Below are positions 18,004 to 33,325 of a DNA stretch of 33,840 bases, piece by piece. Position 1 is the first letter of the stretch; every line of letters starts with the position of its first letter. The notes below the pieces were generated by a model. The model saw only the letters and a program-made list of their open reading frames with translations. It did not search any database and was not told the DNA's origin. The DNA comes from a virus. The translations under genes and the position numbers were made by a program. The stretch lies in the IMG/VR virus record IMGVR_UViG_3300035703_000276, positions 1 through 33,840 of that record, one strand, 5' to 3'.

Positions 18004-18724
18004 ATTGAGGCAGGTCAGTGTTGGCAGCCTCAAAGAACGCAGGCATCCGAGCACGCTGGGTATCGGACAGGCCAGGAGCCTTACCGCGTTCGTAGAGGGA
18101 ATCGGATTGCTTCAGCCAGAAGTCCTTGTCTAGATACTTGTTCTCAGACGAGGACAGGCCATCCACTACCCATCCCACAGTCGCTCTGCGTAGTCGATTG
18201 AGGCTTGGTGTGGACTTGAGGCCAAGCTCGGAACAGACCATCGAGTGGACGGCGACGTGGGTCTGCTCGTCTCTGCTGATGTCGGCTGCTGTGGTGCGGA
18301 TGCCGATGTCTCCGTTGAATCGGAAGAAGGGAAGGATGACGAAGAAGACACTGCGTTCAAGGATCGCTGCCTTTAGTATAGGGTGTTCTGGAGCATCAAG
18401 CCAAGCCTTAAGGATATGTTTGGCTTCGGCTTCGGCCTTGTTGTCGGTACCGTGAGCAGCCACCACATAGTTGAGGGCTTGGTCGTGGCGCTCTTCATCC
18501 AGTTGATTACTCTTGAGGGCCTCCACAACACCGGCAGTCGCTGGCAGTTCCTTTTCCAGACCTTGCTGGAGGAACTCGCGGACCGGTAGCTCCAGGTGGC
18601 GAAGGCCAAGGGCACGACGAATCGCATCCTCGGAACCCTCAACCAGCTTACCAGCTTGAACAGCTACTGGGGTCCACTTACGTTTACGGGCAATGACTTG
18701 GGCATAGGGGGACAGGGTATTCAT
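17996..18724 (-). CDS. nrdB: Ribonucleotide reductase class I beta subunit, short cyanophage type
   Basis: The 242-aa protein directly follows the alpha subunit gene (ATGA overlap). It has ferritin-like metal-ligand motifs: E77-x-x-H80 (EERH), E123 (LERS) and E153-x-x-H156 (EQTH), with E45 or E50 as likely first carboxylate. These are the two E-x-x-H pairs and the extra Glu of class I beta subunits, which hold a dimetal site and make the radical for the alpha subunit. It is shorter than usual (about 320-375 aa). At the position of the radical tyrosine (H+4) it has Leu84; the nearest tyrosine is Tyr86. The penultimate residue is Tyr241, which could serve radical transfer near the C-terminus. 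Cyanopodovirus reductases of the P-SSP7 type were reclassified from class II to class I after such a short beta gene was recognised. Confidence 0.85.
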   Translation of the reverse strand: MNTLSPYAQVIARKRKWTPVAVQAGKLVEGSEDAIRRALGLRHLELPVREFLQQGLEKELPATAGVVEALKSNQLDEERHDQALNYVVAAHGTDNKAEAEAKHILKAWLDAPEHPILKAAILERSVFFVILPFFRFNGDIGIRTTAADISRDEQTHVAVHSMVCSELGLKSTPSLNRLRRATVGWVVDGLSSSENKYLDKDFWLKQSDSLYERGKAPGLSDTQRARMPAFFEAANTDLPQYG

Positions 18725-20157
18725 TCTCCGCAGGGGATACAGGGCTCATCAATTGGTTTAACTTTAGGACAACCACAATCAGGATCCACATCCTCCTCAA
18801 AGGAGAAGAGTTCCTTGTAGTCATCATCCAGGGCAGCCAGGGCATCATCCTTGGCTTGGGTATCAGGCATCACCTGAAGGGCGTAATAAAGGGAAGTCTG
18901 TGGCGAGGTCAGCCAATTATCAATGAACAGTTCGTCGTAGGTAACGACATCACTCCAACTGTTAAACGAGTATCCATGAAACAGGCGGGTATTATGAAAG
19001 AGGCGAACAATGCCATCCGCCACACGTTTGTAATCGTCCCAGCCTACTTCCGCAGCAATCTCACAATCCGGCGGGTAATCATACGACTGAACCCCAAACG
19101 TTCCCGAGTCACGATCAATGTGACGGCTAATAGGAGGAGCCAGCTCTGGAGTGGTAGTATACCCCCGAAGATCGATATTGCTGTAACTACAAGAAGCGGT
19201 AGGGGCAATAGCAAACGCCCGATCCATTTTAGCTTGGCGAGCAAGCTGGGCCGCTGTATCAATAGCATTGGCCAGCTCACTAACAAGGACTTCGGCTTTA
19301 TTGCCGGTGAGACGACGTGTGAAGTAAGCATCTAGGGCTTTACCAAACTCTTTGTAGGTTACCTTATAATAGGCCAAGAAGTTTGCGAGCCCCAAGATAC
19401 CAAGGCCAACTTGCCGGTCTACTTCAGGGGCAAGGTATTCCCCTGTCTCTCCAACGCCCGTTTGGCCGTGAAGAGAAATCAATGAACTCATTCCTTCCAC
19501 AAATGCTGGCACTAGGTCATCGACCGTACAAGCACCGAGATTGACGTGCTGAAGAAGACAAGTGCCACGGCTAGGAAGATAAACCTCAAGGCAGACATTT
19601 CCATAAATACGATTTCCGTTCGTGTCGTAACGGATTTTATTGAGCCAGATGTCTCCCTTCTTGATGCCATCAATGGTTGCGGCAATCAGTTCTGGATCAG
19701 CACCAAGGAACCCATTGTCCACGTTGAGGCATCGCTTCACCCACGCAAGATCTGAACGACTGGCACGGATGAAATCAATAGCATCGGGATGAGTATAGTC
19801 AAGATGACAAACAACAGCTCCGTTTTTGTAGACTCCACCGCGCCTGAGGGTTTCATTAAGAGCAGAGTAGATGCGAGCAAAAGAAACAGGGCCAGACGCA
19901 GTAAGACCGCGACCGTTATCATCGCCCTGTGGACGGAGTTTAGAGAGGTGTACAGCAACGCCAGCACCATTACGGAGGGCATGAGAAACGAAGCGCCAGG
20001 AGGCTTCAATACCCTCCGGTCCTTCCATGCTGTCCTCAACGACGAACACGGTACAACTGACGGGAAGGCGTGATTCCGGATTGTCGATCCACGATTGAAC
20101 GCGACCGGTCCGGGCGATAGTGTTGGGGAGGTCTCCCAGGTCAGCATAGCTGGTCAT
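18721..20157 (-). CDS. nrdA: Ribonucleotide reductase class I alpha subunit, short form
   Basis: This 478-aa protein should reduce ribonucleotides to deoxyribonucleotides for phage DNA synthesis. Visible motifs: Cys35 (PVSCTV) and Cys210 (NLGACT) as the redox pair; the active-site triad N187-x-C189-x-E191 (NVCLE); the GAGVAVHLSKLR glycine-rich segment; and APTASCSY, the phosphate-binding loop equivalent. A Tyr-Tyr pair at 424-425 (SLYYAL) matches Y730/Y731 of E. coli NrdA, the radical relay used only by class I enzymes. The C-terminal tail has Cys residues (CGCP, then CIPCGE) for regeneration by thioredoxin. No ATP cone is present and the protein is much shorter than cellular NrdA, so allosteric activity control is likely absent. 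It overlaps the MazG-like gene and nrdB by ATGA. Confidence 0.92.
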   Translation of the reverse strand: MTSYADLGDLPNTIARTGRVQSWIDNPESRLPVSCTVFVVEDSMEGPEGIEASWRFVSHALRNGAGVAVHLSKLRPQGDDNGRGLTASGPVSFARIYSALNETLRRGGVYKNGAVVCHLDYTHPDAIDFIRASRSDLAWVKRCLNVDNGFLGADPELIAATIDGIKKGDIWLNKIRYDTNGNRIYGNVCLEVYLPSRGTCLLQHVNLGACTVDDLVPAFVEGMSSLISLHGQTGVGETGEYLAPEVDRQVGLGILGLANFLAYYKVTYKEFGKALDAYFTRRLTGNKAEVLVSELANAIDTAAQLARQAKMDRAFAIAPTASCSYSNIDLRGYTTTPELAPPISRHIDRDSGTFGVQSYDYPPDCEIAAEVGWDDYKRVADGIVRLFHNTRLFHGYSFNSWSDVVTYDELFIDNWLTSPQTSLYYALQVMPDTQAKDDALAALDDDYKELFSFEEDVDPDCGCPKVKPIDEPCIPCGE

Positions 20158-20525
20158 ACTAGGTCGTCAAGAATAGGTGGTTGATAGTTAGGCCCCTTCA
20201 TCACTTTACCATCTGCTCGACGTAGGGGCTTCCCATCGACCAGTTTGCTCATGTTTGATTCGAACACCCGTCGCATTGCGGTGTCCAGGTCCCAGCCACG
20301 AGCAGCTGCGTATTGGTAGCAGACGAACACGAGGTCTGCCAGCTCCTTTAATTGATCAACCTTTGAGCCACTTAACTCATCTTCATACTCAACCCGAAGC
20401 TCGTTGTACTCTTCGATGATGAGTCCAAATTGAAGTTCGTGGACATTCTCATCTGGTGTGTTGAGCGGCTGATCCATCGCCTCGCGGAAGGTGATGGCCT
20501 GCTGGAGCAGCGACGGACTGATCAT
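20154..20525 (-). CDS. MazG-like nucleotide pyrophosphohydrolase
   Basis: The 123-aa protein carries the all-alpha NTP pyrophosphatase motifs: E38-E39-x-x-E42 (IIEEYNEL) and E61-x-x-D64 (KELADLVFV), which bind magnesium. The tail ESNMSKLVDGKP plus RRADGKVMKGPNY is typical of the phage MazG/PRA-PH-like family. Such enzymes hydrolyse NTPs, dNTPs or (p)ppGpp-like substrates to monophosphates. Next to ribonucleotide reductase it most likely feeds or cleans nucleotide pools. ATGA overlaps on both sides tie it to the DUF3310 gene and nrdA. Substrate is not predictable from sequence. Confidence 0.88.
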   Translation of the reverse strand: MISPSLLQQAITFREAMDQPLNTPDENVHELQFGLIIEEYNELRVEYEDELSGSKVDQLKELADLVFVCYQYAAARGWDLDTAMRRVFESNMSKLVDGKPLRRADGKVMKGPNYQPPILDDLV

Positions 20526-26836: not shown

Positions 26837-29185
26837 TTAACAAAAGAAGTAAGCAGAGGATTGAACATCATTGATGTCCAACGTGTTTTGCATCACGGAC
26901 TCATCAAACTCTACCCCAAGAGATTCCGACCACTGTTTAAGGATCGGCTGGGAATAGATCTCAACGAACTTGTCCCGTATTGCAAAGGCCATCTCGTCCA
27001 TGTCGCAGGACCTGCCAAGCACACAATCATGAATGACGGTGAATGGCTTGGTCCACTCAGCAAAGACCAGATGAAGTAGAGCAGCATCCAAGCTATGAAT
27101 CAGGTTCGGGCTGGCAGCAGTCTTGGATCGATTAAGATCCACCTGTCTGTCTTCCCATTCCTTGTTGAGCCAGGTCTGCATCCGTTGACCAAGAAGCTTT
27201 GTTTGAACAGGCTTGAGTTCAATCTTTCGATATTCCTGGATGACGTGAAATCCAGAAGGGGTGGTCCACTCAATGGTGGCATTGCCCTCCTTGATCTTCT
27301 GTCCAGCAACCCGTTGAATGAACGTCATGGACGCACACGGACCAGCAAAGACCTGCCTCACTGCGTACCGATAGACGGCCTTGACGATTGCCTGTAGCTC
27401 TCCCTTCTCCAGCTCCACCCCCTTGAGTTCCTGCCTGATGTAGTCCCGTGCGCTGCCCTCAGTGACCCCATAGGGTGTGGTCATGACGGTGCGTTTGGTC
27501 ACCTTGCGGTTCATCAGGTGGTGGAGATGCTTTGGAAGCACATCCTTGGCCTTCTCAGCAACGATGGCGTACCCGTCAGATGGCTTATCAGTGGGAACCA
27601 CGTTGACCATCTGAGCAGCAGTCTTATCAAGCGCAAGAGCCGATAGATGTTGAAGACCAGAGCAGGTGGCATCAACGGACACAGGAAGACCAGAGGTTTT
27701 CTTTTCCTTTGTGATGACACATTGATGATACTCAATGGCAGCAGCCAAGAAGCACCAGGGCTCCTCAAACTTTGACCACTCAGGAATTGTTCCCTCTGGA
27801 TCCTCAGCAATCCTGCTGATCAACTCATGGTTAGACCGAGTCCATTGGATTCGATCCTCCATCGTTGCTTTGTCCAGTCCATAGGTAGTAGCAACCTGAA
27901 AGGCTAACCACCACTCATTAACAGGACCCTCCTCGTTGAAGTAGATGAGGCTCTTGTCGAAGTCAGTTCCCTGGGGGCTGAGGCTTGTGGGAATTGGATA
28001 GCAACGGCCCCGAAAGTCGAATGACCAGGGAATCCAGAAGACATCGTCCTTGTACTTGTTCGCCACAAAGACTGCCTCTGTGGTTCTGTAGTTCTTCTGC
28101 GCCAGTCCTGCGTTCCTATCTTCGATCTCTGTTCGAGTCCGTCGATAGTACAGCTTCTCCTCTTCGGAGGCTGATTCCCAGGGGTCTGGCTTTGGCGGTG
28201 GAGGCGATGGCTCCTCAGCTCGGAACTTACCCACAGTGATGCGGCGTTCCATACAGAAGTTGGCTACGTCAAGGACGCGGCTGTTGATCCGGTAAGGGAC
28301 CTTCTGGAGACGGTTCAGCATGGCTAGTGCCCTGCTTCCGTATAGAAGCAAGTGCCTTTTCTTGAAATGGGTCCCTCGGACCAGGGTCGTGAGGCGTCTC
28401 AGCTCGTTGGTGAGGTACCCACCAGAGCTGGCGTTGTTGTCCCCGGCCCAGTCGTTTGGCTCACACAGCATGGGCCACATACATGCCGCGAAGGCCTCAG
28501 CCTGCTCCATGAGCGCCTCCTTGGCCTTGAGGAACTCTGGCTGATACACCAGGATGTTCTGGGTCTTCTGGGCGGACGTGCGCTGGCAGCTGATGCCGAG
28601 CCAGCCGGTGGCCTCACAGAGTCGATCAAGCAGCCATCCACCAACAAGCACCTTGACGGCCGTTGGCCAGCGTGGAGCCTGGATGCTGTGCTTGCGCATC
28701 ACGGCCCGATAGCGTTGGACCCGATACGAATAGCCCTTGTTGTGGTGGAGGTGCTTCTTTGCCTGCTCGAAGAGGTCCTTGTGCTTGGCGTGGAAGTCAT
28801 CCAGAAGAATCTGGTCATAGACCAAGGTTCCAATGCGATAAGTAACCGCAGCGTAGGTTGGTTTGTCTACCTTGCGATTGCCAAGCACATCAAGCACAGC
28901 CTTTGCCGTGATCAGAGCAAGGACACACGGATCGCAGTCCTTGATCACCATGGCTGCTGCTGCCTTGTCGGAGGCCCAACCACGGGTGATGTGGCTGAGC
29001 TTTGCCTCGATGCTCTCTGTGATCTTTTGGAGGCCGCTGTTGATGAACGCAGAGCCATAGACCGTGGAGCTGGCATAGGACCGCTCTTCAGCCACTCGTG
29101 TGCGTTCCCGAAGCCGCTTGATGGCTTCCCTGCGTGCCTCCAGTTCTCGATGAAACTGACGATCGAGTTGTTGTGGGGTAGCCAT
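26837..29185 (-). CDS. Single-subunit DNA-dependent RNA polymerase, T7 gp1-like
   Basis: All key residues of the T7 family are visible in this 782-aa protein. Motif A has D505 (VDATCSGLQH; T7 D537). Motif B has R560, K564 and Y572 (RKVTKRTVMTTPYG; T7 R627, K631, Y639). Motif C has H719-D720 (VIHDCV; T7 H811-D812). The C-terminus YFFC recalls the FAFA end of T7 polymerase that sits near the active site. It is about 100 residues shorter than the T7 enzyme, mostly in the N-terminal domain. It should transcribe the replication and structural genes from phage promoters I could not identify. It follows the preceding gene by 3 nt, and the last codons of that gene form a C/A-rich leader. Confidence 0.97.
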   Translation of the reverse strand: MATPQQLDRQFHRELEARREAIKRLRERTRVAEERSYASSTVYGSAFINSGLQKITESIEAKLSHITRGWASDKAAAAMVIKDCDPCVLALITAKAVLDVLGNRKVDKPTYAAVTYRIGTLVYDQILLDDFHAKHKDLFEQAKKHLHHNKGYSYRVQRYRAVMRKHSIQAPRWPTAVKVLVGGWLLDRLCEATGWLGISCQRTSAQKTQNILVYQPEFLKAKEALMEQAEAFAACMWPMLCEPNDWAGDNNASSGGYLTNELRRLTTLVRGTHFKKRHLLLYGSRALAMLNRLQKVPYRINSRVLDVANFCMERRITVGKFRAEEPSPPPPKPDPWESASEEEKLYYRRTRTEIEDRNAGLAQKNYRTTEAVFVANKYKDDVFWIPWSFDFRGRCYPIPTSLSPQGTDFDKSLIYFNEEGPVNEWWLAFQVATTYGLDKATMEDRIQWTRSNHELISRIAEDPEGTIPEWSKFEEPWCFLAAAIEYHQCVITKEKKTSGLPVSVDATCSGLQHLSALALDKTAAQMVNVVPTDKPSDGYAIVAEKAKDVLPKHLHHLMNRKVTKRTVMTTPYGVTEGSARDYIRQELKGVELEKGELQAIVKAVYRYAVRQVFAGPCASMTFIQRVAGQKIKEGNATIEWTTPSGFHVIQEYRKIELKPVQTKLLGQRMQTWLNKEWEDRQVDLNRSKTAASPNLIHSLDAALLHLVFAEWTKPFTVIHDCVLGRSCDMDEMAFAIRDKFVEIYSQPILKQWSESLGVEFDESVMQNTLDINDVQSSAYFFC

Positions 29186-30453: not shown

Positions 30454-30790
30454 CGAGTTGCTCCAGGGCGCGGCGGATGGTGTCAAGTGAGTTCAAGGTT
30501 TCTTGACTGAACTCTGTCGTGTCCCAAAGCATGTCCACTTTTTCAAGCTCGGCAAGCGCCTGCTCCTTCAAGCTTGGCGGCTCGGGGCGGCGGGCGGCGC
30601 GGAGTTGCCGAGATTCACCGGACCAGCCTTCTCGATTAAGCCACTCACAGCACGTTTCCAGCTCCTGGTCGGCGCCCCATTGGGCGGCCTCGTTGGCGAT
30701 GCGGAACCACAGCGCTTCGGGGTCTGTGTCGCCTTGAAACCGCGACCAGTGGCGCACCAGCTCCGGCGGTGGGGTGATGGGATGTGTCAC
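30446..30790 (-). CDS. Early protein of the ITPPPELV type, common in Synechococcus phages
   Basis: The start is the GTG at 30790, which overlaps the preceding stop (GTGA) and has GGAGG 9 nt upstream. This gives a 114-aa product MTHPITPPPELVRHW that goes on with ALWFRIANEAAQWGADQELE and QLRAARRPEPPSLKEQALAE. This wording, including the opening, QWGADQELE.CCEWL and LRAARRPEPPSL, recurs from memory in small proteins of Synechococcus cyanophages and is a good host marker. It is helical, with Trp-rich faces; function is not known to me. GC content here is higher than in the genes to its right, so it may have been acquired separately. Confidence 0.82.
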   Translation of the reverse strand: MTHPITPPPELVRHWSRFQGDTDPEALWFRIANEAAQWGADQELETCCEWLNREGWSGESRQLRAARRPEPPSLKEQALAELEKVDMLWDTTEFSQETLNSLDTIRRALEQLDD

Positions 30791-31026
30791 TTTGTCAACC
30801 TCCAACAATAAGAAAGGTGTGCTCGTTGAATGTCCTCCTTGATGGCAATCAAGTGCTTCTGACCAGTCATTGCTGCTGCTCGGAAGATCTCTACCACCAT
30901 CATTCTTTCAGTCGGTGTGAGGCTATCGCTGCCCCGTCTCTTGATCTTTTCAATGATGCGACCAATCTCGGGTGGGTGATTGTTTCTATCGGGTCTCTCC
31001 TTTGTTGCGGGCATGTTGTTAATCAT
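30787..31026 (-). CDS. Small early hypothetical protein
   Basis: With ATG at 31026 (8-nt overlap with the preceding stop) the product has 79 aa: MINNMPATKERPDRNNHPPE, a basic helix (IGRIIEKIKRRGSDSLTPTE), then RMMVVEIFRAAAMTGQ. A second ATG at 31014 would remove four residues. The composition, strongly basic in the centre and helical, could suit nucleic-acid binding, but no family is recognised. It ends with GTGA overlap to the next gene. Confidence 0.7.
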   Translation of the reverse strand: MINNMPATKERPDRNNHPPEIGRIIEKIKRRGSDSLTPTERMMVVEIFRAAAMTGQKHLIAIKEDIQRAHLSYCWRLTK

Positions 31027-31360
31027 GAAGAACAAGGCTAGGAAAGCTGGACAGTGAGTTGATAAAGACTGCCTCTTGATCGAACTGTTCGCAGTACTCC
31101 TTGGCTATTTTGTGAACATCAATAGCATCAAAGTACTGCTCACTCGTAACCGTCACGATACTAACATCCTCAGGATCACCATTCCAATAACCAACACCTT
31201 GACTAATCGAAAATGATTTGAATCGGGGAACAATGTTCTGCTTGACAAACTTGTTGAAGAGCTTGTCGGTGACTCGTCTTGTTTCTTCATGACCAAGCTG
31301 TGGTGTGGGTACATTCCTACCAAGGTAGATCTGATAGGTTGTTGCGGTTGATGGGACCAT
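31019..31360 (-). CDS. Early protein, possibly DUF3574-like
   Basis: The 113-aa protein has the layout YQIYLGRNVPTP, then VTDKLFNKFVKQNIVPRFKS, FSISQGVGYWNGDPEDVSIV, and EYCEQFDQEAVFINS. This recalls DUF3574-like proteins (a FxGR strand, a helix, GxWxG with E, and YxxxFxQEAV near the end). The match is from memory and is tentative. ATG at 31360 is chosen over GTG at 31363. The 48-nt gap upstream (31361-31408) holds the palindromic TTGTTTATAACAA just before the ATG; no convincing promoter was found in it. Confidence 0.7.
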   Translation of the reverse strand: MVPSTATTYQIYLGRNVPTPQLGHEETRRVTDKLFNKFVKQNIVPRFKSFSISQGVGYWNGDPEDVSIVTVTSEQYFDAIDVHKIAKEYCEQFDQEAVFINSLSSFPSLVLHD

Positions 31361-31408
31361 CACTTGTTATAAACAAATGGAAGATAGTAAGGGCGATCGG
31401 CTCTGTTT

Positions 31409-32431: not shown

Positions 32432-32492
32432 TGTCGGGGACCTCCCACAAATAGTAGAACAATTTATCAGTGATAGAATCTAGTTCATACAT
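32373..32492 (-). CDS. Possible 39-aa acidic small protein
   Basis: A short frame starts at ATG 32492, overlapping the stop of the HhH-like gene by 8 nt, and runs 59 nt into the next gene. It reads MYELDSITDKLFYYLWEVPD and continues NETDNNDPDDEPLWLPWED. The composition (Asp/Glu plus Trp) is unusual and not shadow-like, since shadows of this region are basic. The Shine-Dalgarno is weak (GGAG 11 nt upstream). Small acidic early proteins in T7-like phages often bind host proteins or mimic DNA. The evidence is limited to the overlap pattern and composition. Confidence 0.4.
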   Translation of the reverse strand: MYELDSITDKLFYYLWEVPDNETDNNDPDDEPLWLPWED

Positions 32493-33120
32493 CTTTTAGT
32501 AGTCTCCGATATGTAACCCAGGTAACAGCCTGAACCTGAGTCGGTGTTAGCTTGTGGCCGCATATTTCAAACGACCTATCAGCCACTAAGCAATAGGCCC
32601 GTTGAATTGTTTCATAAAGGGACGCACTAATTGACGGTGTCTTAGTTGTTGGGATGCGCTGCCCAATAAAGACAGAGTATGCGTGGCCATCAACACAGAC
32701 TGCGTTAGGATCGCCCATGATTGACCGATAAAAAGCGGTGATCTTTCTACCATTCAGTATTGACACAATAGCCTCACTGTCTAGTGATTCTGTGTCCAAT
32801 TCTAGAATCCTGATAGCCTTTTCCTTGTTGCCGTTATAGGTGCAAACCTTAGTGAGGCTTAGATCATGGCCGCTGAGATACGCTTCGATTAACCTATCAG
32901 CGTCAGCGCAGTTACGTTCCCATTTATTGTTCGGTGATAGTGCTGCGATCACACCGACAGCCTGACCCATTGTTATGTCATAGGCTGCGATCAATTGAAC
33001 ACCGAACCTATGGGCTCTGGCGTACCATTCTTTACCCTTAAAGATATCCGCCTCAGTTGCGAGACTGAGAATGCCAGAGATGTTGCGCGTGTTTGCGCGG
33101 TGCTTAACCCGGTTTGCCAT
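32485..33120 (-). CDS. Early protein with HhH-GPD DNA glycosylase-like signature
   Basis: The 211-aa protein contains a block starting at G124 (GRKITAF) and ending in VCVDGHAYSV. It aligns without gaps to the catalytic block of E. coli endonuclease III (GRKTANV to AVDTHIFRV), as I recall that sequence. Lys126 and Asp144 are 18 residues apart, the same as K120 and D138 of that enzyme. The preceding ILNGRK may be a degenerate helix-hairpin-helix. The helix AVGVIAALSPNNKWERNCAD could match the LLSxQ helix. No FeS cysteine cluster is seen at the C-terminus. Possible roles are base excision, AP-site cleavage, or processing of modified bases, since HhH-GPD relatives also occur in phage thymine hypermodification. 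The leader before the ATG is C/A-rich (33121-33154). Homologues in other phages are to my knowledge unnamed. Confidence 0.75.
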   Translation of the reverse strand: MANRVKHRANTRNISGILSLATEADIFKGKEWYARAHRFGVQLIAAYDITMGQAVGVIAALSPNNKWERNCADADRLIEAYLSGHDLSLTKVCTYNGNKEKAIRILELDTESLDSEAIVSILNGRKITAFYRSIMGDPNAVCVDGHAYSVFIGQRIPTTKTPSISASLYETIQRAYCLVADRSFEICGHKLTPTQVQAVTWVTYRRLLKDV

Positions 33121-33154: not shown

Positions 33155-33325
33155 TCAGTAGTCGCAAATAAGATAGACTGACTCTATGTCAATTGTTGGA
33201 TGAAGCTTAGCGCAAGTGGCGTAGGCCTCAGCCTTTGTTTCCTTGACATAGGACAGGACCTGATACCGGTCTTGCTTAGTGTCCCATTCCCGGACACCCC
33301 AGACAAACAATTTAGGTTCGATCAT
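33155..33325 (-). CDS. Small early protein, 56 aa
   Basis: The frame starts at ATG 33325 and reads MIEPKLFVWGVREWDTKQDR, then YQVLSYVKETKAEAYATCAK and LHPTIDIESVYLICDY. It fills the space between the CA-repeat leader and the HhH-like gene. A beta-alpha-beta order is likely: a WGVREWD strand, an ETKAEAYATC helix and an IESVYLI strand. This matches the general form of the 65-aa protein upstream (GGWEAIHTG, then DCYAAALAV), so the two may be paralogues. Function unknown. There is no Shine-Dalgarno; ACAACCACA directly precedes the ATG. Confidence 0.7.
   Translation of the reverse strand: MIEPKLFVWGVREWDTKQDRYQVLSYVKETKAEAYATCAKLHPTIDIESVYLICDY

Follow-up and report, generated by a model that had tools for sequence, protein, structure and literature searches.

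A predicted OGG-like DNA glycosylase, DUF7178, at the genome-entry edge of phages and plasmids

Several families of 8-oxoguanine (8-oxoG) glycosylases are the closest described relatives of the phage protein considered here. Ogg2 enzymes (PF22175; MjOgg 3knt, SsOgg 3fhg and TmOgg 3n0u) are all-helical proteins of about 205 aa. Their Asp194 corresponds to hOGG1 Gln315, a residue that forms a bond to N1 of 8-oxoG, while base stacking is provided by Trp198 in Ogg2 or Phe319 in hOGG1 and the phosphate contact of OGG enzymes is either His or Trp (PMC3397491). The C-terminal lysine of Ogg2 senses N7-H of 8-oxoG, and its loss abolishes 8-oxoG cleavage but spares lyase activity (PMC3397491). DNA glycosylases can also take part in phage-host conflict, as exemplified by the defence enzymes Brig1 and Brig3; these are host-side and directed at the phage, and Brig1 has been described with the uracil-DNA glycosylase superfamily (PMC11078745, PMC13160076).

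The window, by which we mean the whole stretch of 33,840 nucleotides that was analysed, derives from a T7-like cyanophage, whose hosts are photosynthetic bacteria. Three of its genes concern us here:

32485 to 33120, minus strand: DUF7178 protein of 211 aa, a predicted OGG-like HhH-GPD DNA glycosylase/AP lyase (family profile, models, conservation, profile alignment)
33155 to 33325, minus strand: early-region open reading frame of 56 aa just upstream of the DUF7178 gene, without a family match (ORF list and profile scan)
26837 to 29185, minus strand: T7-like single-subunit RNA polymerase, about 3.3 kb downstream of the DUF7178 gene (profile scan)

The first of these encodes a full-length member of Pfam DUF7178 (PF23802; residues 3-205, E 1.5e-45, 156 bits against a cut-off of 27) and of PHROG 3842 (full length, E 1.1e-55), and both entries leave its function unassigned. 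A preliminary description had spoken of an unnamed phage family, which does not wholly hold. Some actinophage and cyanophage records even carry the labels 'glycosylase', 'DNA glycosylase' or 'N-glycosylase/DNA lyase', which shows that the class of enzyme had already been guessed by annotators; this analysis adds the pocket of OGG type, the pattern of positions at the entry edge and the restriction to mobile elements. Relatives of the 211-aa protein were confirmed 338 times on viral contigs, and 137 phage records contain a match at E below 1e-5. Comparison of the gene with seven close relatives gave a dN of 0.04-0.07 and a dS of 0.5-1.2, for a dN/dS of about 0.05-0.08. Given this strong purifying selection and the 338 relatives, the open reading frame is a real gene.

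Other routes to a family assignment returned nothing. The protein has no match in NCBIfam, four diverse members matched no PADLOC model, and DUF7178 was the sole Pfam family reported at E up to 1. PF00730 is thus not matched, but MjOgg itself also falls below the PF00730 cut-off. PF22175 (Ogg2) finds neither this protein nor anything else in the whole record, and OGG_N, the N-terminal A-domain of OGG1, is likewise unmatched in a 211-aa protein that is too short to hold it. Sequence searches of the PDB, with the single protein and then with a 24-row profile, gave no meaningful homologue, and a literature search found no paper describing DUF7178 or the phage family of the window. Streptomyces phage Sf3 gp35, called HhH-GPD in PMC5336643, was considered and set aside as a different protein of 280 aa that is matched by pfam00730. 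Two labels in public records seem to be in error: Tunturiibacter phage Tunturi_3 gp111 (L138, 3953-4549) is called 'portal protein', yet it is a 198-aa DUF7178 member (E 1e-39) and likely misannotated, and the DUF7178 gene of Rhodococcus phage Jflix2 (gene 104) is called 'glycosyltransferase', probably a slip for glycosylase.

The fold was read from two independent models and from the agreement among their structural matches, not from one strong score. An AlphaFold2 model of the window protein, built on a 24-row alignment, is all helical (pLDDT 93.6, pTM 0.88). When it was compared with the PDB by Foldseek, Ogg2 chains took ranks 1-3 (prob 1.00, 0.99 and 0.99; TM 0.50-0.55), AGOG, the archaeal 8-oxoG glycosylase, came at rank 5 (prob 0.72), and endonuclease III reached a prob of about 0.2. 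The second model, of a Streptomyces member 29% identical to the window protein (pLDDT 89.1), returned 8-oxoguanine glycosylases (Ogg2, OGG1 or AGOG) at all of its top 21 positions, with OGG1 at up to prob 0.90. The corresponding E-values are weak, the best being 0.11 and 0.14 for the two models and none under 0.001. With TM of only about 0.5 and E above 0.1, the kinship is remote. The predicted structures nonetheless place DUF7178 in the HhH-GPD fold, as had been proposed, with OGG enzymes (Ogg2, then OGG1/AGOG) as nearest kin. The earlier label of endonuclease III-like is therefore sound for the superfamily and not for the closest relative.

Conservation was followed in two sets, one of 81 sequences taken from the window and viral contigs and another of 41 diverse members from cyanophages, roseophages, actinophages, a Salinibacter virus, Bacteroidota and Nostoc loci, Streptomyces plasmids and polyvalent proteins. 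The features of interest are, in the coordinates of the window:

33022 to 33027, minus strand: W32-Y33 of the N-terminal helix, invariant (41/41)
32911 to 32937, minus strand: SPNNKWERN motif, residues 62-70, in which S62, W67 and N70 are invariant (41/41)
32680 to 32763, minus strand: catalytic block, residues 120-147 (SILNGRKITAFYRSIMGDPNAVCVDGHA), with the shortened hairpin, K126, F130, D144 and H146 (conservation and profile alignment)
32743 to 32745, minus strand: K126, the predicted catalytic lysine, aligned with MjOgg K129 and E. coli Nth K120 (hhalign)
32689 to 32691, minus strand: D144, the predicted catalytic aspartate, aligned with MjOgg D147 and E. coli Nth D138 (hhalign)
32518 to 32532, minus strand: Q197 to W201, the predicted base-reading Gln and base-stacking Trp, aligned with MjOgg D194 and W198 (hhalign and review)

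K126 (in GRKITAF) and D144 (in VCVDGHA) are kept in every sequence of both sets (81/81 and 41/41). The two outcomes named beforehand as fatal to the earlier proposal, a different fold and a variable K126 or D144, were thus both looked for and neither was seen. Eleven positions are invariant across the 41 diverse members, namely W32, Y33, A36, S62, W67, N70, K126, F130, D144, Q197 and W201. The position of H146 is His in 36 of these and Trp in the other 5. Because the catalytic pair is separated by 17-21 residues in 39 of the 41, the 18-residue spacing of the window protein, which is also that of endonuclease III, is not a family constant. Most members have LxGxK, two residues shorter, in place of the LPGVGxK hairpin, the [4Fe-4S] cysteine motif (C-x6-C-x2-C-x5-C) is absent from all 41, and the C-termini vary freely, so that the C-terminal lysine of Ogg2 has no conserved counterpart. 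The SPNNKWERN motif is possibly the DNA-wedge loop of HhH-GPD enzymes. An equivalence to the orphan-cytosine contacts of hOGG1 (N149, R154) was dropped: N64, N65 and R69 vary in distant members, and profile alignments leave the region unpaired.

Profile alignment by hhalign ties these residues to known enzymes. The match to Ogg2 exceeds chance: the diverse alignment scored 27.9 against three Ogg2 sequences, whereas none of 20 column shuffles rose above 16.0 and the reversed alignment reached 11.4; the reported probability is low (17%), yet above all controls. It pairs K126, D144, H146, Q197 and W201 with K129, D147, H149, D194 and W198 of MjOgg, whose sequence was checked against the PDB. Against an Nth alignment led by the E. 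coli enzyme, K126, D144 and H146 pair with K120, D138 and H140. The preliminary description had put K126 and D144 on the catalytic pair of endonuclease III, called the hairpin degenerate and seen no FeS cluster, and each of these readings is borne out. When close relatives made up most of the alignment, OGG1 gave the best match and Ogg2 a weak one. The diverse alignment reversed this order, so sequence by itself is no secure guide as to which of the two is the closer kin.

The putative pocket combines features of several enzymes. In common with Ogg2 it has the catalytic Lys and Asp, the phosphate His and the stacking Trp; unlike Ogg2, it has Gln in place of Asp194, a shortened hairpin and no C-terminal Lys sensor, and it is carried by mobile elements. 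With OGG1 (human and mouse) it shares the Lys/Asp pair, Gln at the Q315 position and the alternation of His and Trp at the phosphate contact, but it has Trp instead of Phe319, lacks the A-domain with its Gly42 and is much smaller. AGOG resembles it in its stacking Trp, non-standard hairpin and fold (prob 0.66-0.72 over the two models) and differs in having Asp218 where DUF7178 has Gln and a longer catalytic spacing (K140-D172). Endonuclease III aligns at the catalytic pair, but it has the FeS cluster and the LPGVGxK hairpin that are missing here, and its fold match is weaker. DUF7178 thus appears to have an OGG-type pocket in a new combination (Q197, W201 and F130). The protein stands outside formal Ogg2, OGG1 and endonuclease III, having the fold and catalytic residues of HhH-GPD enzymes and not their canonical hairpin.

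From the invariant residues we infer a catalytic chemistry as follows. The protein would bend DNA and flip a base into the pocket, where it would be held between F130 and W201 while Q197 reads its edge and H146 (Trp in some members) contacts the phosphate. D144 would drive cleavage of the glycosidic bond; K126 would attack C1' to make a Schiff base and could then nick the strand through beta-elimination. Among possible substrates, a purine that has been oxidised or modified in some other way is the likeliest, and most probably one derived from guanine. 8-oxoG itself is only a candidate, because the C-terminal lysine of Ogg2 is not conserved and the A-domain of OGG1 is absent. The uracil and hydroxymethyl substrates suggested earlier find no support in a pocket that resembles those of guanine-lesion enzymes. 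SprT-like protease genes lie within about 1.5 kb of DUF7178 in Mycobacterium phage DroogsArmy (L092, 3350-3820) and Microbacterium phage Cece (L082, 3679-4140). SprT-type proteases clear DNA-protein crosslinks, and such crosslinks could arise from a Schiff-base lyase.

A pocket of this kind brings lesion repair to mind, and it is a plausible purpose, if held tentatively. An OGG-type enzyme could remove 8-oxoguanine or FapyG from phage DNA before replication, which would be useful under photosynthetic reactive oxygen. The closest folds are those of 8-oxoG glycosylases, the pocket residues are of OGG type, and cyanophage S-CRES3 has a pyrimidine dimer glycosylase in addition to its DUF7178 gene. 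Yet the residue by which Ogg2 senses 8-oxoG is not conserved. Mycobacterium, Streptomyces and Gordonia phages moreover carry DUF7178 no less often, and it is therefore not tied to photosynthesis.

Where the gene sits in genomes offers a second line of evidence. Its position upstream of the RNA polymerase gene is kept in dozens of relatives. In one relative assembled across the genome ends (L002), the terminase large subunit, thymidylate synthase, small open reading frames, DUF7178 and a stretch matching the RNA polymerase gene of the window follow one another, which makes DUF7178 the first sizeable gene of the early region and supports the earlier view of a very early gene. Across the early region, sites resembling promoters or terminators do not exceed their frequency in shuffles, so early expression is read from gene order only. 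Other open reading frames of the window deserve mention. A 114-aa early one (31019-31363, minus strand) matches DUF3574 (E 7e-9). It also matches, below threshold (E 0.035), the S-adenosylmethionine lyase family, and an anti-restriction SAM-degrading enzyme like that of T3 would be compatible with this. An early one of 82 aa (30787-31035, minus strand) has a near-threshold DUF6576 match (26.5 bits, cut-off 27.3). Further along, a ribonucleotide reductase-like frame (18721-20157, minus strand) matches part of the barrel-domain profile only, and a MazG-like one (20154-20525) lies just upstream in the same direction.

Beyond this phage, DUF7178 lies within 5% of a record end in 26 of 43 records, with the proviso that record ends are not always physical ends and that a binomial P for this location is inflated by the inclusion of related phages among the 43. 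Microbacterium phage Cece and Rhodococcus phage Dorin have the same DUF7178 gene block at both record ends, as expected of a long terminal repeat. Among Streptomyces plasmids the gene is within 2.5 kb of the record end in 7 of 10, and two of these seven, SLP2 and pSglau1, were checked as linear. The domain is also built into larger proteins: a 634-aa protein of cluster C mycobacteriophages, a protein of 1158 aa encoded two genes from the major capsid gene, and one of some 2,040 aa in which a complete DUF7178 domain and a second, split one accompany inorganic pyrophosphatase and 2H phosphoesterase domains. Matches in the BFVD structure set include proteins named polyvalent, a kind thought to be injected along with phage DNA (PMC5512222, PMC7824862). 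In the Streptomyces plasmid pRLB1-9.1 (L137, 1330-4806) the 1158-aa protein joins an apparent prohead-type N-terminus, a ParB-like segment and DUF7178, and its gene sits shortly before the major capsid gene. Cellular genomes rarely exceed the DUF7178 cut-off: 1 of 194 in the Nostoc phylum, 11 of 199 in the genus of the Streptomyces locus and 0 of 14 controls. With few exceptions the family belongs to phages and plasmids, where it occupies the genome-entry edge. Since many phages unrelated to one another carry it at their entry end, and Streptomyces plasmids carry it close to their tips, a role within minutes of the start of invasion is indicated.

We consider it likely, from folds, residues and positions together, that DUF7178 is a compact (about 200 aa) OGG-type glycosylase, probably also an AP lyase, that does its work on DNA as it enters or immediately afterwards. 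It would be produced within minutes of infection or perhaps, in other phages, travel in the virion as part of large polyvalent proteins, and it would rid incoming DNA of lesions or of modifications made by defences. What the computations show is the class of fold, the invariance of the Lys, Asp, Gln and Trp, the near confinement to mobile elements, the position at the entry edge and the purifying selection; the enzymatic activity, the purine substrate, the timing of expression and the purpose are what we infer.

Lesions gathered in the virion do not explain a position near plasmid tips, and counter-defence is a possible purpose that we rate about equal to repair. The enzyme may excise a defence-modified base on incoming DNA or reverse a defence mark, in a niche like that of Ocr or Ard. 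The entry-edge site in phages and linear plasmids would suit such a role, as would the copies that lie close to both ends of phages whose ends are repeated, the fusion into polyvalent proteins of the injected kind (PMC5512222, PMC7824862), the near absence from cellular genomes and, in phage Andris, an Ocr-like gene about 2 kb from the DUF7178 gene. No defence partner or target was found, however, nor any PADLOC match, and many unrelated early genes share the same location. The position at plasmid tips, the fusions of virion type and the breadth of hosts speak rather for conflict, and the fold kinship to 8-oxoG enzymes speaks rather for repair.

Less likely than either is an attack on the host, in which DUF7178 would excise a base present in the host chromosome and not in new phage DNA, a methylated one for example, thereby breaking host DNA and freeing nucleotides. 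An early position and predicted lyase chemistry are compatible with this, and the endonuclease I and ribonucleotide reductase-like genes of this phage would suit the use of host DNA. But the linear plasmids that carry DUF7178 do not kill their host, and the pocket is like that of damaged-guanine enzymes; we regard such an attack as unlikely. An inactive or re-purposed HhH-GPD fold, acting as a DNA-binding or base-modifying protein and not as a glycosylase, would suit the shortened hairpin, but it is improbable given that catalytic and pocket residues are invariant in all 41 diverse members and that no base-hypermodification genes were recognised among the scanned replication-module and early genes of the window. 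With regard to the thymidine hypermodification enzymes of glycosylase fold in phages, the protein has no Pfam match beyond DUF7178, and the scanned half of the window holds no partner hydroxymethylase or kinase gene.

The enzyme class proposed here gives a testable identity to a family without an assigned function that is known from hundreds of viral contigs and from well over a hundred records of phages, and whose carriers infect hosts of several bacterial phyla. It singles out K126, D144, Q197 and W201 for mutation, and oxidised and modified guanine as first candidate substrates. Should the role at the entry edge prove true, base excision would join nucleases, methylases and DNA mimics as an entry tool of invaders, and polyvalent proteins with a DUF7178 domain would gain a predicted activity. 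A bolder and rather doubtful extension is that DUF7178 is a mobile-element-specific branch of the OGG fold, a general entry factor for stripping DNA of a guanine modification that host defence either places or requires. If so, lytic phages, temperate phages, virion polyvalent proteins and linear plasmids would have an entry factor in common, and DUF7178 would be the invader's counterpart of the Brig-type defence glycosylases of the host.
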